The notes beneath the pieces were generated by a model. The model was not told the DNA's origin. It saw only the letters and a list, made by a program, of their open reading frames with translations, and did not search any database. Positions 2,548 to 31,735 of a stretch of 64,000 nt of DNA are shown here, piece by piece. The first letter of the stretch is position 1. Every line of letters begins with the position of its first letter. This stretch comes from Pseudomonadota bacterium (lineage in GTDB: Bacteria; Pseudomonadota; Gammaproteobacteria; Burkholderiales; Burkholderiaceae_C): positions 186,001 through 250,000 of the forward strand of contig JAIUPQ010000001.1 in assembly GCA_020161145.1 (NCBI GenBank), written 5' to 3'. A program made the translations under genes and the position numbers.

Positions 2548-4067
2548 TGGGCAACGGTGCCCGTCGGGGCGTGAGCGGGTGGCTGGGTCTGCTGGGGCAG
2601 GGTGGGCCGCAGCGGTTGCAAGGGCTGCATCGGCGGTGGCGCTGGTGGTTGCCAGGCCGGGCGGGGTGCGGGGTTGGCGCCGCCGGGCGTCTCCTCGGCT
2701 TCGGCGTCGTCGGACAGGGCGGCCTGGGGCTGCACCGTGGGGGCCACCACGGGCGCGGTCTGCGGTGGCGGGGGTGGTGGCGCGCTGCCGGGTCGCGGGC
2801 GCCAGGGGCTGATGGCCACGCCGGCCGCACCGCTTTGGGCATCAAAACCCTGGGCTTGCAGCCGCGCCTGCGCGGCGCCCACCTCGGCGGGTGGCCAGGG
2901 CGGTGTCAGCGTCAACTGGCCGGGCGCGAAGGTCAGGCCGCTGGCCGCCGGACGGCCAGGAGGCCAGGCGCGCTGGGCGGCGCTCAGCAAGGTCTCCAGG
3001 TCGCCCGGGCCCGGGCGGCCGGCTGCGGCGCGCAGCATGTCCACCTCGCGCTGCATTTGCAGCACCGGGTCCTGAATGGCCCGCACCTGTGGGAAGGTGG
3101 CTTGCAGCAGCTGGATCTGGGCCGTGCGCTGGGCCTTGGCCTCGCGGTTGAGTTGCCAGGCGTAGAGATTGAGGCCCACCACCTGGACCACGGCCAGCGT
3201 CGCCAGTCCCCAGCGCACCGGGCGCCAGCCAGGCTCGTGGGCGAAGCGTTGCCACAGCTGGCCCAGCCGCCCGCCCCGGCGCGGTCGGCCGGCCAGGTCG
3301 AACTGGCGCAGGTTCCAGGGCTGGGCGGCAGCGGCCAGCATCTGCTGGCCGGGCGAGAGGGCGGCCACGGTGGCGCCGGCACTGAGGTCGGGCAGCTGGG
3401 CCAGCCAGTGCGTGGCGGCGTCGGCGCTGTCGGCATCGGCCGTCCAGCGCACCGGCATGTCGGGCGGCACCCGGGCCACCAGGGCGCGGGCGGCATCGCT
3501 GTCCAGCGGCATGGCGATGGGGCCCTGGGCATCGCGCCAGGCCAGCCAGGGTGCAGCGGCGGCGGCGTCGCTTTGCGGCGCGGGGCGAAAGACGTGGCCG
3601 GCCGGGCGCTCGTCGGGCGTCCACAAGGGCACGATGCGGTCGGCCGGGCAGCCGGCGGCGGCCATGGCAGCCAGTTGGGCGGTGAGCCAGGGTTTGGGCA
3701 GCGCGGCCACCCAGGCCGACTCGCCCGCCTTGGCCTCGGGCTGCACGGCCAGGTGCAGGGCGGCGGACTCGTCCAGCAAATCGTCTTCCAGCAGGCCGAA
3801 CAGCGCCGCACGCAGTTTGGGGCCGCTGGCTTTGGGCAGGGTGGCGCGGTGCCAGACCACGTCGGCCGGGCTGACCAGCGCCACCACCTGGGTCTGGGCG
3901 CTTATGGGCGGCCATTGGGCGGGCTCGGCCCGGCCATGGCGGGTGAGCTGGCGACCGTCCTCGCTGTACAGGTAGGCCCATTCACCGGCGGTGGGCTGCA
4001 CGGCCGCGTCCGGTGGCTGGGCGGCCAGGCGCGGGGGCGAGGGCAGGGTGACGATGAGGATGGACAT
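2544..4067 (-). CDS. gspL: Type II secretion protein GspL
   Basis: Inner-membrane subunit that couples the GspE ATPase to the pseudopilus platform. The 507 residues comprise a cytoplasmic actin-like domain (about 1-280, with LRAALFGLLEDDLLDE), one membrane helix near 285-305 (ATLAVVQVVGLNLYAWQLN) and a periplasmic ring domain. The last 90 or so residues form a proline/glutamine-rich tail that starts with a run of prolines. That tail is longer than in typical GspL (about 400 residues) and looks disordered. The gene stands 54 bases after gspK and overlaps gspM by 4. Confidence 0.9.
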   Translation of the reverse strand: MSILIVTLPSPPRLAAQPPDAAVQPTAGEWAYLYSEDGRQLTRHGRAEPAQWPPISAQTQVVALVSPADVVWHRATLPKASGPKLRAALFGLLEDDLLDESAALHLAVQPEAKAGESAWVAALPKPWLTAQLAAMAAAGCPADRIVPLWTPDERPAGHVFRPAPQSDAAAAAPWLAWRDAQGPIAMPLDSDAARALVARVPPDMPVRWTADADSADAATHWLAQLPDLSAGATVAALSPGQQMLAAAAQPWNLRQFDLAGRPRRGGRLGQLWQRFAHEPGWRPVRWGLATLAVVQVVGLNLYAWQLNREAKAQRTAQIQLLQATFPQVRAIQDPVLQMQREVDMLRAAAGRPGPGDLETLLSAAQRAWPPGRPAASGLTFAPGQLTLTPPWPPAEVGAAQARLQAQGFDAQSGAAGVAISPWRPRPGSAPPPPPPQTAPVVAPTVQPQAALSDDAEAEETPGGANPAPRPAWQPPAPPPMQPLQPLRPTLPQQTQPPAHAPTGTVAQ

Positions 4068-28138: not shown

Positions 28139-28167
28139 TTGACAGCCACCTGTTGCAGTCCTAGTGT
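28139..28167 (+). promoter_or_regulatory. Likely sigma-70 promoter of the TOMM cluster
   Basis: A perfect -35 TTGACA (28139-28144), a 17-base spacer and TAGTGT (28162-28167) lie 47 bases upstream of the precursor ATG. No operator repeat is obvious within it. Confidence 0.6.
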
Positions 28168-28214
28168 GCACACCAGACGGGTCATCCGTCGCCACAACCT
28201 TTGAGGAGGAGATC

Positions 28215-28538
28215 ATGTCCAACGAAAACGATCTCAGCAATCTCAACGCCCGTCTGACCGCGATTGAAAAGACGCTGGAAAGCTTGAGCCGCAAGCCCTC
28301 TGTGACGGAGTTGTCGGCAGAGGACATGGCAATCTACAAGAAGGTGCGTGACGTCATGGCCTTCGATCCCGACCACGTCTGCGGCATCAACGAGTGCTTC
28401 AAGTGCTCGGTCACCAGTTGCCGCGTGTGTTCGATCTGTCAGGTCTGCCGGGTGTGCCGCGTGTGCGACTTTGAATGCGTCTGCGGCCCGTGCAGCTTTG
28501 GTGGGTTGGGTGGCCGCTTCAGAGGCTTGGGTGACTGA
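28215..28538 (+). CDS. Cysteine-rich RiPP (TOMM) precursor peptide
   Basis: A 107-residue precursor with a strong GAGGAGGAG ribosome site before ATG 28215. The leader (about 1-55) is charged and helical (MSNENDLSNLNARLTAIEKT, then SVTELSAEDMAIYKKVRDVM). The core has 12 Cys (56, 61, 64, 69, 72, 75, 78, 81, 84, 88, 90, 93). Those from 69 to 84 sit at every third residue (SCRVCSICQVCRVCRVC), and a Gly-rich tail SFGGLGGRFRGLGD follows. A Cys ladder directly before E1-like, YcaO and SagB genes is what a thiazole-forming pathway acts on. It is not the Nif11 or nitrile-hydratase leader type, and the CxxC ladder recalls heterocycloanthracins only in spacing. The stop overlaps the E1 start by 8 bases. 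Confidence 0.85.
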   Translation: MSNENDLSNLNARLTAIEKTLESLSRKPSVTELSAEDMAIYKKVRDVMAFDPDHVCGINECFKCSVTSCRVCSICQVCRVCRVCDFECVCGPCSFGGLGGRFRGLGD

Positions 28539-29634
28539 GGGCGGCGCCGCCGCGAAGGCCTATCGGCTGGTGCCCGGCACCGAATGGGTGGCCGTGGATG
28601 ACAGCTCGGCCATCTTCCGCTCGCTGCGCAGCCAGGCCACGTTGAGCGGCGAAGCGGTCGGCGCCTTTGTGGCGGCGGTCGTGCCGCTGCTGGATGGCCG
28701 TCACAGCTTGCGGGAGCTGGCGGCCGCCAGCGTCGAGGTGCCGATCGAGGCCTTGCTGGCCCATCTGAAGGCCTTGGCCGATGCGGGCCTGATCGAGCCC
28801 GACGTGGGGGGGCAGTCGGGCGACTACCTGGCGCCCCTGGTCAGCCACCTGGCCACCGAAGGGCGAGCGCCCGAGCAGTTGCGAAACCGCCTCAGCGGGC
28901 AGCGGGTGGCCGTGTTTGGCCTGGAGTCGGCGGGCGCGCAGCTGGCGCGCGAGTTCGCGCGCTGGGGCGTGCGGCAGTTGTTGCTGGCCGATCCCTCGCC
29001 CCATCAGCCCGATGACCCTGCCGATCTGGCGGGCGACCCCACGGCCAGCCGCCAGGCCTTGCTGGCCGCCGAGTTGCGCCACCGCCACCCGGCACTGGAC
29101 GTGCAGACCCCGGTGGCCGCCTGGAGCGCGGCGGCCGTGGAGGCCGCCGTGGCCGATGTCGATGTGGCCATCGCCGCTGCCGACCGGGAGTTCGCCGTGC
29201 TGGCCCAATGGGTCAACAAGGCGGCGGTGGCACAGCGCAAGGTGGCCGCGTTCTGCACGCTGGAGGGCGATTCGGCCTGGATTGGCCCCATCGTCTTTCC
29301 CGACGAGACGGCCTGCTACATGTGCTACCGCATGCGCGCCATTGCCTGCGAGGACGACTACGCCGCCGCCATGGCCTTCGAGGAGCGCCGGGACAAGGAC
29401 AGGAGCCCGCGCGGCCCGCGCGAGCCCACGCTGATGCCGCTGGCCTCGGTGGCCGCCGGCATGCTGGCCATGGAGTTGGCCAAGACCTTCACCGCTGCCG
29501 GGCGGCATGCGGCGGCCGGCCGCGTGCTGGAGTGGAACGGCTTGCGCGGCGAGCCCGGCGCGCACACCATCTTGCGGCAGCCGGCGTGCCCGGTCTGCGC
29601 AAAAAAAAAAGCGCCCATCCCGACCTGGATCTGA
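28531..29634 (+). CDS. TOMM E1-like cyclodehydratase partner (leader-binding)
   Basis: A 367-residue E1/ThiF-related protein that presents the precursor to YcaO. The N-terminal winged-helix RRE-like domain is at about 8-95 (ESLRELAAASVEVPIEAL-type helices ending in ADAGLIEPD). The Rossmann core begins LSGQRVAVFGLESAGAQLAR. Zinc cysteines are C262/C265 (CYMC) and C353/C356 (CPVC). GTG 28531 is chosen: AGAGG lies 5 bases upstream and it overlaps the precursor stop; in-frame GTGs at 28510 and 28501 are alternatives. The zero frame ends only 11 residues after the last Cys, just past a run of ten A. Continuation into YcaO by a -1 shift there is possible. Confidence 0.85.
   Translation: MTEGGAAAKAYRLVPGTEWVAVDDSSAIFRSLRSQATLSGEAVGAFVAAVVPLLDGRHSLRELAAASVEVPIEALLAHLKALADAGLIEPDVGGQSGDYLAPLVSHLATEGRAPEQLRNRLSGQRVAVFGLESAGAQLAREFARWGVRQLLLADPSPHQPDDPADLAGDPTASRQALLAAELRHRHPALDVQTPVAAWSAAAVEAAVADVDVAIAAADREFAVLAQWVNKAAVAQRKVAAFCTLEGDSAWIGPIVFPDETACYMCYRMRAIACEDDYAAAMAFEERRDKDRSPRGPREPTLMPLASVAAGMLAMELAKTFTAAGRHAAAGRVLEWNGLRGEPGAHTILRQPACPVCAKKKAPIPTWI
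29601..29611 (+). other. A10 slippery run at the E1/YcaO junction
   Basis: Ten consecutive A followed by G, in DNA near 70% G+C. In the E1 frame the codons are GCA-AAA-AAA-AAA-GCG, which allows an A-AAA-AAA or A-AAA-AAG slip of -1. The -1 frame is already open upstream and stays open to the YcaO stop at 30953. The E1 frame ends 21 bases downstream at 29632. Programmed -1 frameshifting, transcriptional slippage, a real indel or a sequencing error in the homopolymer would all give the same picture. Confidence 0.7.
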
Positions 29635-29678
29635 GCGCGCCAAGGCCAGACACACCGCCGCTGCGCGACCTGGCGCCC

Positions 29679-30953
29679 GTGCTGGTCGGCCGCCACGCGG
29701 GGCTGGTGCGGTCGCTGACGCTGTTTCACAAGCCACCCGCTGAGCCGCCCTGGCCGCTGATCTACCGGGCCGAGCTGGCCAACAGCCGGTTTCTGTCCGA
29801 CAAGGCCGAGGCCTTCCAGGTCGCCTCCGGCAAGGGGATGGATGACGACGCGGCGCAGGTCAGCGCCCTGGGCGAGGCGGTGGAGCGCTACGCCGGCATG
29901 GCCTGGCCCGGCGAGGATATTCGGCGCTGCCCGCGCGGCGACCTGCCGGGCCTCGCCCTGGACCCGCAGCGGCTGGTGCTGTACGGCCAGGCGCAGTACG
30001 CGAACCTGCCCTATGCCCCACTGCTGCCGGACAGCGTGCTGGGCTGGCTGCCGGGGCGCACCCTGCCTTCGGGGCAGCCGATCTGGGTGCCCGCGCAGCC
30101 CACGCTGATGGCCTACACACCCGCACCGGCCGAGCCCGACCTGTGCCAGGTCACCTCCAATGGCCTGGCCGCCGGGCCCACGCTGGCCCAGGCTGCGCTG
30201 CGGGCGGCGCTGGAGGTGCTGGAGCGCGATGCCTTCGTGGCCACCTGGCTGTTGCGCCTGCCATGCGAGCGGGTCGATCCCGCCAGCGTGCCGGACGCGG
30301 GCGTGCGCCAGCTGGCGGCGGCCTATGCACGGCGGGGGGTGCAACTGGAGCTGTACCGCCTGTTTCCGCGTGGGCCGGTGCACTGTTTCGTCGGCCTGGG
30401 CGTTGCGCTGCAGGCGGCGGTGCTGCCGGCCGTGGTGGTGGGGCTGGGGGCCGATCTGGATCCGGTGCGCGCGGCCGCCTCTGCCGCGCTGGAGATTGGC
30501 CAGGTGCGGCCCGGCCTGGCCTACCGGCTCAAGGATCCGCAGGTGCAGGCCCAGCGTGCGGCCATGCTGGAGCACACCAAACTGCTCAAGACGCTGGAGG
30601 ACCATGACCTCTACTACGCCGGCCACGACACGCTGGCCGCATTCGATTTCATGCGCAGCGCGCCGTTCGTGACGCCGGACTGGCGGGCGCCCGCCGTGGT
30701 GGAGGGTGAAGCCGCAGTGCGGGCCCTGGCCGACGACGTGGCAGCCCAAGGCAGCGAGTTGGTGCTGGTCAACCTCACCCCGCCCGACCTGGCCGCATTG
30801 GGCGTCTTTGCCGTGCGCGCCTTCGTGCCGGATTTCCAGCCCATCTATTTCGGCCAGCAGGAGCGGCGCCTGGCCCATCGCCGCCTGGCCCAACTGGCCG
30901 CGCGCCATGGTCTGGACGTGACCATCAACCCCAACCCCCATCCGCTGGCATGA
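29679..30953 (+). CDS. YcaO-domain azoline-forming cyclodehydratase
   Basis: ATP-dependent enzyme that turns Cys (or Ser/Thr) of the precursor into thiazoline/oxazoline. Visible features: YRAELANSRFLSDKAEAFQV; the nucleotide/Mg blocks VSALGEAVERYAG and LRAALEVLERDAFVATW; the central VVVGLGADLDPVRAAASAAL; and the C-terminal PxPxP signature (PNPHP, residues 418-422), the mark of azole-forming YcaO proteins. The start is unsettled. GTG 29679 has no ribosome site and would cut the first helix (LRDLAPVLVGRH is coded from 29661). The frame is open back past the A10 run, so the protein may be made as an E1-YcaO fusion. It overlaps sagB by 4 bases. Confidence 0.88.
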   Translation: MLVGRHAGLVRSLTLFHKPPAEPPWPLIYRAELANSRFLSDKAEAFQVASGKGMDDDAAQVSALGEAVERYAGMAWPGEDIRRCPRGDLPGLALDPQRLVLYGQAQYANLPYAPLLPDSVLGWLPGRTLPSGQPIWVPAQPTLMAYTPAPAEPDLCQVTSNGLAAGPTLAQAALRAALEVLERDAFVATWLLRLPCERVDPASVPDAGVRQLAAAYARRGVQLELYRLFPRGPVHCFVGLGVALQAAVLPAVVVGLGADLDPVRAAASAALEIGQVRPGLAYRLKDPQVQAQRAAMLEHTKLLKTLEDHDLYYAGHDTLAAFDFMRSAPFVTPDWRAPAVVEGEAAVRALADDVAAQGSELVLVNLTPPDLAALGVFAVRAFVPDFQPIYFGQQERRLAHRRLAQLAARHGLDVTINPNPHPLA

Positions 30954-31735
30954 CGACTTCTGCTTTTCGCGACGCCCACCCCCTGAGCTGGGCTTTTCAC
31001 GCCAACACGGCGCGCTTTGCCCACAACGCCGAGCCACCGCCCGAGGACGTCTGGCCCGACCCGGCGCGCGAGGCGCCCGAGTTGCCGCTGACCCCGCTGC
31101 CCACGGGGCCGGTGCTGACGATGACGCTGGACGAGCTGCTGCACAGCCGCTGCTCCTGCCGCCAGTTCACGGCCGGGACGCTGCCGCTGGCGGCGCTGGC
31201 CAGCGTGTTGCAAGCCGCCTACGGCGTGGCGCGCCAGGAGGCGTATGGGCGGCTGGACTTCACGACCCGCACGGTGCCCTCGGGCGGTGCGCTGTATCCG
31301 CTGGAGCTGACGCTGATCTGCCGCCAGGTCGAGGGGCTGGCCAGCGGCGTCTACCACTACCTGCCGGGCCTGCACGCGCTGGAATGCGTCAAGGCCGTGG
31401 TGGTGCCAGCGGCCTTTCTGACCTATCTGTTCATGGGGCAGTCGCAGTTGACGCAGGCGCCGGTGCTGGGGGTGCTGTCGGCGGCATTCGGGCGCACGAT
31501 GAAGAAGTACGGCGACCGTGGCTACCGCTACATCCTGCTCGAAGCAGGCCACGTCATGCAGAACCTCAACCTGGCCTGCACCTCGCTGGGCCTGGGCTCG
31601 TGCAACATCGGCGGCTTCTTTGACGACGAACTGGCCGGCCTGCTGGGCCTGCCCGTCGCGCAGGAAGCGGTGCTTTACGCCGTGGCCATCGGCATGCCGG
31701 CCGCGACGGGCCGCCAGCAGCAGCGCGACCTTTGA
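30950..31735 (+). CDS. SagB/ThcOx-type azoline dehydrogenase
   Basis: An FMN-dependent nitroreductase-fold enzyme of 261 residues that oxidises azolines to aromatic azoles. Blocks: LDELLHSRCSCRQFTAGTL (FMN-phosphate Arg region), TRTVPSGGALYPLELTLICR, YHYLPGLHALE, YRYILLEAGHVMQNLNLACT and GLGSCNIGGFFDDELAGLLG, all typical of SagB. The Lys-Tyr pair used by azoline oxidases may be MKKYGDRGYRYI (about 184-195). Its ATG overlaps the YcaO stop as ATGA. It is the last gene of the cluster: no transporter, peptidase or immunity gene follows before the convergent MocR gene. Confidence 0.93.
   Translation: MTTSAFRDAHPLSWAFHANTARFAHNAEPPPEDVWPDPAREAPELPLTPLPTGPVLTMTLDELLHSRCSCRQFTAGTLPLAALASVLQAAYGVARQEAYGRLDFTTRTVPSGGALYPLELTLICRQVEGLASGVYHYLPGLHALECVKAVVVPAAFLTYLFMGQSQLTQAPVLGVLSAAFGRTMKKYGDRGYRYILLEAGHVMQNLNLACTSLGLGSCNIGGFFDDELAGLLGLPVAQEAVLYAVAIGMPAATGRQQQRDL

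Follow-up and report, generated by a model that had tools for sequence, protein, structure and literature searches.

We analysed a stretch of 64,000 nucleotides (the window; positions 186,001 to 250,000 of contig JAIUPQ010000001.1) from a bacterium of the gammaproteobacterial family Burkholderiaceae_C, which contains a compact cluster predicted to produce a ribosomally synthesized and post-translationally modified peptide (RiPP) with azole-type rings. Examination of the cluster reveals four coding frames, all on the plus strand. The first (28215..28538, ATG start) encodes a precursor peptide of 107 residues with 12 cysteines, comprising a leader of approximately residues 1-54, a Cys-rich core (56-93) that ends in ECVCGPC and a tail with the sequence GGRFRGLGD; the preliminary description of the locus had set its start at 28139, which lies upstream of this gene. 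The precursor gene is overlapped by 8 nt by the gene for an E1-like protein (the C protein; 28531..29634, GTG start), which contains two CxxC zinc motifs, the last of which, CPVC, is close to its C-terminus. The YcaO cyclodehydratase frame (the D protein; 29586..30953, limits set by the first GTG in frame) lies in the -1 frame relative to the C gene, and the two frames meet just past CPVC at a run of ten A residues (A10; 29601..29610), a putative slippage site at the C/D junction. Finally, a gene for a SagB-type FMN dehydrogenase (the B protein; 30950..31735) overlaps the YcaO frame by 4 nt. Thus, the order of C, YcaO and SagB given earlier stands as far as gene content is concerned, as confirmed with NCBIfam, but C and YcaO are not simply adjacent, being offset by -1 across A10. 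Inspection by eye found no clear ribosome-binding site before YcaO, which is without a clear start of its own.

All three enzymes score above their NCBIfam cut-offs: the C protein against TIGR03882 (55.7 bits, cut-off 36.9), YcaO against TIGR03604 (238.9 bits, cut-off 219.25), which places it among the SagD-type cyclodehydratases, and SagB against TIGR03605 (146.3 bits, cut-off 78.4). The corresponding Pfam matches are ThiF (PF00899), PF02624 and PF00881. Among PDB structures YcaO matches TruD and LynD; the C protein matches MccB best, with TruD and LynD next, and SagB matches a putative nitroreductase best, CyaGox second and McbC lower. The YcaO protein ends in NPNPHPLA and so has the C-terminal PxPxP noted previously; PHPLA also ends its two closest relatives in a plasmid collection. 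The probable N-terminal RiPP recognition element (RRE) of the C protein is supported only indirectly: weak winged-helix matches in NCBIfam and Pfam lie within residues 49-126, and the matches to the PaaA and MccB profiles begin at profile positions 52 and 66, inside the winged-helix region. A reading of the locus as a defence system was rejected, as the C protein shows merely faint E1-E2 similarity. No promoter-like site was found at the locus, and its two terminator-like sites compare with 1.7 in shuffled sequences. The gene content, together with a precursor that has a kept leader and a variable core rich in Cys, Ser and Thr, makes the original proposal of a compact azole-type cluster well supported, specifically as a thiazole/oxazole-modified microcin (TOMM) or linear azole-containing peptide (LAP) cluster that would yield a thiazoline or thiazole peptide.

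The precursor family and its relatives

The twelve cysteines of the precursor are at positions 56, 61, 64, 69, 72, 75, 78, 81, 84, 88, 90 and 93, and the six from 69 to 84 are spaced exactly three residues apart, just as first described. Such a six-step ladder appeared in 8 of 200,000 shuffles of the precursor's own residues, and it is the best among 784 six-frame stretches of at least 40 residues in the window, the runners-up having three steps. The peptide shows nothing above cut-off in NCBIfam (three weak matches lie far below, the best at E 0.014) and no match in Pfam at E up to 1. A profile of its family recovers the same peptide as the sole strong match in its genome (E 5.5e-41), and no second precursor or YcaO was found there, save a chance-level precursor match (E 0.91).

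Relatives were collected with an alignment of three YcaO sequences, against which about 85,000 species genomes were scanned; the best 80 of 354 confirmed stretches (78 loci, given below as L numbers) were analysed, the collection being limited by two search patterns. In a tree of 81 YcaO sequences, the window's YcaO belongs to a clade of 22 rows with support of 100/99; two of these rows (L004 and L019) fill less than half of the columns. The clade includes members from Actinoplanes, Micropruina, Propionicimonas, Kribbella, Georgenia and Nonomuraea, as well as from a Rhodocyclaceae bacterium, Thiodiazotropha, an Acidobacteriaceae bacterium, two Chloroflexota and four Bacteroidota. A SagB gene comes next in 19 of the 22 members; it is undetected in L004, L013 and L020. 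Searches closer to the window's own lineage returned little: a YcaO of this kind (E up to 1e-20) occurs in one of 299 genomes of the family, the window's own, and in two of 369 genomes of the class, the second at 24% identity, while the precursor profile matched one of 398 genomes of the phylum, again the window's own. Thus, the 397 other genomes of the phylum supplied no extra members for the slippage test described below. There was no precursor in the plasmid collection and no DNA match in E. coli genomes, viral contigs gave one partial YcaO with 31% identity, and a search with the upstream-side DNA in 16 genomes of the genus gave two long matches besides its own, at 71 and 69% identity. By these searches the cluster is rare and spread over several bacterial phyla.

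Translated and profile searches of the loci furnished 14 complete precursor relatives, which, aligned with the window's precursor, represent three phyla. In all 14 the Cys-rich relative lies directly upstream of the C gene, with spacing that ranges from overlap to about 130 nt, so that the neighbourhoods of the related YcaO genes leave the earlier proposal unrefuted. The alignment reveals a kept leader of the form LExRIxELExxL ... EExxxYxKV and a tail resembling RFGGLG. A CGINDC motif is also kept, except that it is altered in Bacteroidota, and ECxCGPC likewise, except in L007. Between these motifs the core cysteines differ widely: at one extreme Aquimarina (L060) has a 13-step CxxC ladder, at the other Thiodiazotropha (L008) has a few cysteines with gaps of up to 10, and the gaps across the 14 relatives are 2-10. 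Since the number and spacing of cysteines vary between kept motifs, the exact three-residue ladder is one form that the core can take, and not a general trait of the family.

The other seven clade members depart further. L006 holds just the end of a precursor gene; L017, L021 and L022 have leader-like sequence followed by a core with one or two cysteines; and no precursor relative was found in L004 or L020 by the same searches. In the two Kribbella loci (L021 and L022) the precursor has a family-like leader and a single core Cys, and a large AAA/LuxR-type regulator gene (the L021 copy was scanned) adjoins SagB. In the remaining one, from Chloroflexota (L013:7704-9392), a leader-like peptide devoid of a Cys core is followed by YcaO, with the C gene and SagB undetected.

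None of the 15 aligned precursors matches an NCBIfam model at E up to 0.1, except for the window's, far below cut-off, and their Pfam matches are scattered and weak (best E 0.001). Hence the models of known families leave unrefuted the earlier suggestion that the precursor family may be undescribed. We regard membership in a real family as well supported by the kept leader, tail and position; this family appears to be undescribed and has no NCBIfam or Pfam model above cut-off, and it is set apart from mobilisin by description only.

Among 15 other genes scanned near the window's cluster are those for VIT1, MOSC, a MocR-type regulator, glutathione transferase, aconitase, and malate and succinate dehydrogenases. 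The 23 flanking genes scanned in 12 clade members encode a helicase, dehydrogenases, regulators, general ABC transporters, a LanC-like protein and others. The LanC-like gene (L012:5003-6346) lies upstream of, and adjoins, the Actinoplanes cluster on the opposite strand. A conserved exporter, for which one group of genes present in 12 loci (c3) was a candidate, was rejected, as its three scanned members are ABC ATPases at differing places. As no dedicated exporter or protease recurs among the scanned flanking genes, though unscanned ones could hide one, the product may rely on general machinery for export or have an intracellular role.

The A run at the C/D junction

A run of seven to ten A residues (A7-A10) occurs just behind the final CxxC of the C domain in 17 of the 22 clade members, including the window. 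In 15 of these C and D form a single frame across the run, with the same CxxC-then-Lys sequence. The run is A10 in L006, L007, L008, L010 and L060, A9 in L011, and A7 in nine actinobacteria (L012, L014, L015, L016, L018, L019, L022, L037 and L040), two of which (L018 and L019) contain CAAC in place of CPxC before it. In the last of the 17, the metagenome-assembled genome (MAG) L017, the run is A9 and the frame is broken there. L004, L009, L020 and L021 have no run, and the C gene was not detected in L013. (In our tree the label 'slip' marks 14 of the 17 run-bearing members, L007, L018 and L019 being unlabelled.) In the window, A10 is the only homopolymer of at least eight residues in 64 kb, and the sequence after it matches the linker of the fused relatives.

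Two further lines of evidence bear on the run. First, simulated codings of the fixed protein under local codon usage gave the run in 0 of 20,000 cases for the window, whose genes use AAA for one of 15 lysines elsewhere; the corresponding values are 0.0001-0.021 in the nine actinobacteria and 0.027 in L006 (L007 was left out of this test). Because the simulations rarely give them, the runs of the high-GC members are not attributable to Lys codons; in all nine actinobacteria the run is also the only A or T run of at least seven in the stretch examined. The run therefore goes beyond codon usage in the window and the nine actinobacteria, and does not in the low-GC members tested. Second, were the site in use, the alternative frame should end soon. 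A -1 stop lies 2-20 codons past the run in all 14 scored fused genes (those of the 15 fused run-bearing genes that remain after exclusion of L007 for in-frame stops), with background medians of 7 to 220 codons. The combined p is 0.00067, or 0.0051 with nine representatives, and the equivalent values for the +1 frame are 0.32 and 0.14. Fused clade members that have no run (L004, L020 and L021) are open at -1 for 121, 65 and 76 codons. Slipping in the fused genes would yield a short product that stops just past the C domain, the same point at which the free-standing C protein of L005 terminates; in the window, straight reading gives a C protein ending CPVCAKKKAPIPTWI. The excluded gene, a fused C-D from a Mucilaginibacter MAG, has two in-frame stops (L007:1515-1517 and 3003-3005), reflecting a decayed gene or assembly errors.

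In light of these observations, we consider it fairly likely that the locus is a TOMM/LAP cluster of an uncatalogued precursor family in which a slippage site at their junction couples C to D. The C protein would bind the precursor leader, the YcaO domain would use ATP to cyclodehydrate core cysteines to thiazolines, and SagB would oxidise some or all of these to thiazoles, consistent with the thiazole-ladder product that had been envisaged for the window. Reading straight through A10 would give C alone, ending just past its last zinc motif, while a C-D fusion would result if RNA polymerase (on A9-A10) or the ribosome slipped into the -1 frame. In most relatives the situation would be the converse, with the fusion arising from straight reading and C alone from a slip. 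In both layouts the cell would obtain free C plus C-D, perhaps in a set ratio of leader-binding to catalytic subunits.

Several observations weigh against this reading. Codon usage suffices, or nearly so, to account for the run in L008 and in three of the four Bacteroidota (L010, L011 and L060; P 0.25-0.69) and in L017 (0.08). The significance of the early stop at any single locus is 0.039 at best, and congeners are not independent; moreover L042, a fused and run-less locus outside the clade, has a -1 stop after 3 codons. As five clade members (L004, L009, L013, L020 and L021) are without the run, it is not essential. In L017 it would take a shift in the other direction to read D, and an indel may be present there. 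With L018 and L019 left out of the comparison, the folding energies past the run stay within background and reveal no hairpin; a downstream hairpin that seemed present by eye in some actinobacteria was rejected on the same grounds. RNA-polymerase slippage needs no stimulatory hairpin.

These points bear on the possibility that the window has an ordinary fused C-D gene whose frame was changed by a recent mutation or by misassembly of a homopolymer, the A runs of relatives merely encoding a conserved Lys-Lys. Long A runs are prone to both indels and assembly errors, L017 likewise breaks frame at its A9 run and is itself a MAG, and codon usage would account for the run in the tested low-GC members. 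We nevertheless deem this possibility unlikely, given that A7 with AAA AAA codons is kept in nine high-GC actinobacteria despite codon usage, as the sole such run of each locus, and that the early stops are in the -1 and not the +1 frame. It is more doubtful still that C and D are separate genes in the window, with translation of D coupled to that of C and beginning, free of slippage, at a GTG close to where C stops. C and D are indeed split in L009, which lies near the window in the tree, and in all nine loci of the radical-SAM type described below, and the D frame offers GTG codons ahead of its conserved part. However, no ribosome-binding site is apparent by eye before those GTG codons, the sequence after the run resembles the linker of the fused relatives, and L009, which is truly split, has lost the run.

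Sister clades, known systems and implications

Two sister clades of the YcaO tree display alternative layouts. The first consists of nine loci from Paracoccus and its relatives and two Acidobacteriota (L005, L023, L024, L026, L029, L030, L034, L038 and L043). Here, the precursor has the same leader, a large gene (c4) lies between the precursor and C genes in all nine, C and D are separate genes throughout, and SagB is present in eight, the contig of L024 ending before the SagB position. The c4 protein of L005, the sole copy scanned, matches TIGR03975, a model named for B12 radical-SAM C-methyltransferases. The precursors examined from Paracoccaceae and Roseobacteraceae have a Cys every four to six residues or so and a tail like FGGLG or FGSLG, and the two acidobacterial precursors have fewer cysteines and other tails. 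The second clade comprises five loci (L025, L028, L031, L032 and L036) from two Shewanella, Undibacterium, Methylococcaceae and Hellea, with a fused C-D (the C part of L028 being beyond the contig end), SagB undetected, and a gene (c7) after YcaO. The c7 product of L025 (9471-10340), the sole copy scanned, contains the C-terminal domain of the Irp3 thiazolinyl imine reductase (PF21390, E 1.3e-12) and a GFO_IDH_MocA domain. The location of c7 where SagB would be suggests thiazolidine-bearing RiPPs. An Irp3-like reductase beside a related cyclodehydratase is good, though indirect, evidence for thiazoline intermediates. An alternative role for the Cys-rich peptide, in metal binding or redox chemistry or as a thioamide acceptor, is very improbable. 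In its favour, the conserved CGINxC and ECxCGPC resemble metal sites, the precursor shows very weak resemblance to NuoI (E 0.014) and RecR (E 0.077), and no dedicated export gene recurs among the scanned genes. Against it, an E1-type C protein with SagB is the azole set (PMC4603692), core Cys number and spacing vary greatly with leader and tail kept, and the sister clade has the Irp3-like reductase.

Other peptides at the analysed loci are unusual. In the Hellea MAG, a 144-residue open frame (L036:6320-6751) with 32 cysteines in CxxC steps lies just upstream of the fused C-D, and the precursor profile misses it. L027 (6088-6843) and L033 (6134-6691) contain precursor-like peptides with GACFP or GACQ core repeats; a large guanylate cyclase/AAA/TPR protein adjoins the peptide genes of L033, and a related large gene is present in L027.

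The cluster resembles known TOMM/LAP clusters in combining an E1-like C protein, a YcaO D protein and a SagB-type B protein, each above its cut-off, with a Cys-rich precursor. C-D fusion, seen in most of the window's clade, is found in about half of TOMM clusters according to the accessible part of PMC4603692. It differs in having a precursor with no family match above cut-off, a conserved tail after the core and the A run at the C/D junction. Heterocycloanthracin (TIGR03601) likewise has a Cys-rich core, and the paper on its hidden Markov model carries the words 'repeated Cys-Xaa-Xaa motifs' in its title. There was, however, no match to TIGR03601 by the window's precursor at E up to 1, or by the 15 members at E up to 0.1; and in contrast to the truncated cyclodehydratase and TOMM F protein used by heterocycloanthracin (PMC4603692, accessible part), the C protein here is of the TIGR03882 type. 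A long leader is shared with the NHLP/Nif11 leader TOMMs and the proteusins, and the radical-SAM sister clade is reminiscent of proteusin-like clusters. Yet the leader here is a short heptad-like segment, and neither the window's precursor nor the 15 members match the NHLP/Nif11 models of NCBIfam, which agrees with the earlier impression that the leader is unlike Nif11. Mobilisin, from Actinobacteria, shares the minimal B, C, D set and the fused cyclodehydratase, but its candidate precursor differs in being reported as poor in Cys, Ser and Thr (Cox et al. 2015, PMC4603692, accessible part); compared on description only, it could overlap with the actinobacterial clade members. In the accessible part of that paper the present precursor is not described under the grouping itself or under heterocycloanthracin, NHLP/Nif11, propionisin, coryneazolisin, mobilisin or gallolytisin.

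The junction finds its nearest parallel in dnaX, for which both layouts are on record: in E. coli the ribosome shifts on A_AAA_AAG, and in Thermus it is RNA polymerase that slips, on a run of nine A's (PMC3711429 and PMC5009743, accessible parts). Shared features are an A-rich slippery site at a domain boundary, an early -1 stop and the occurrence of both layouts; the differences are that the gene is another one, that no hairpin beyond background is seen here, and that the present junction is known from sequence alone. YcaO, thiazole, bacteriocin and microcin are unmentioned in the accessible part of PMC3711429 and in most of PMC5009743. In the literature searched, which covers subscription journals thinly, we found no recoding in cyclodehydratase, YcaO or other RiPP biosynthetic genes, and we found no report in that literature of a YcaO paired with a thiazoline or thiazolidine reductase.

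Taken as a whole, the evidence makes it reasonably probable that the window belongs to an undescribed azole-RiPP family, distributed over five phyla, in which a dnaX-like programmed slippage at A7-A10 makes C and C-D in a set ratio, the layout being reversed in the window. Azole RiPPs gain a precursor family with long Cys ladders of up to 13 CxxC steps (L060), and the wider lineage comprises three layouts, with SagB alone, with SagB plus a B12 radical-SAM enzyme, and with a thiazoline reductase in place of SagB. If true, the slippage would be the first reported recoding event in a RiPP biosynthetic enzyme within the literature searched, and would caution annotators against taking every split gene of this kind for a broken one. 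It would also provide a natural handle on whether cyclodehydratases need a free C protein beside the catalytic unit.

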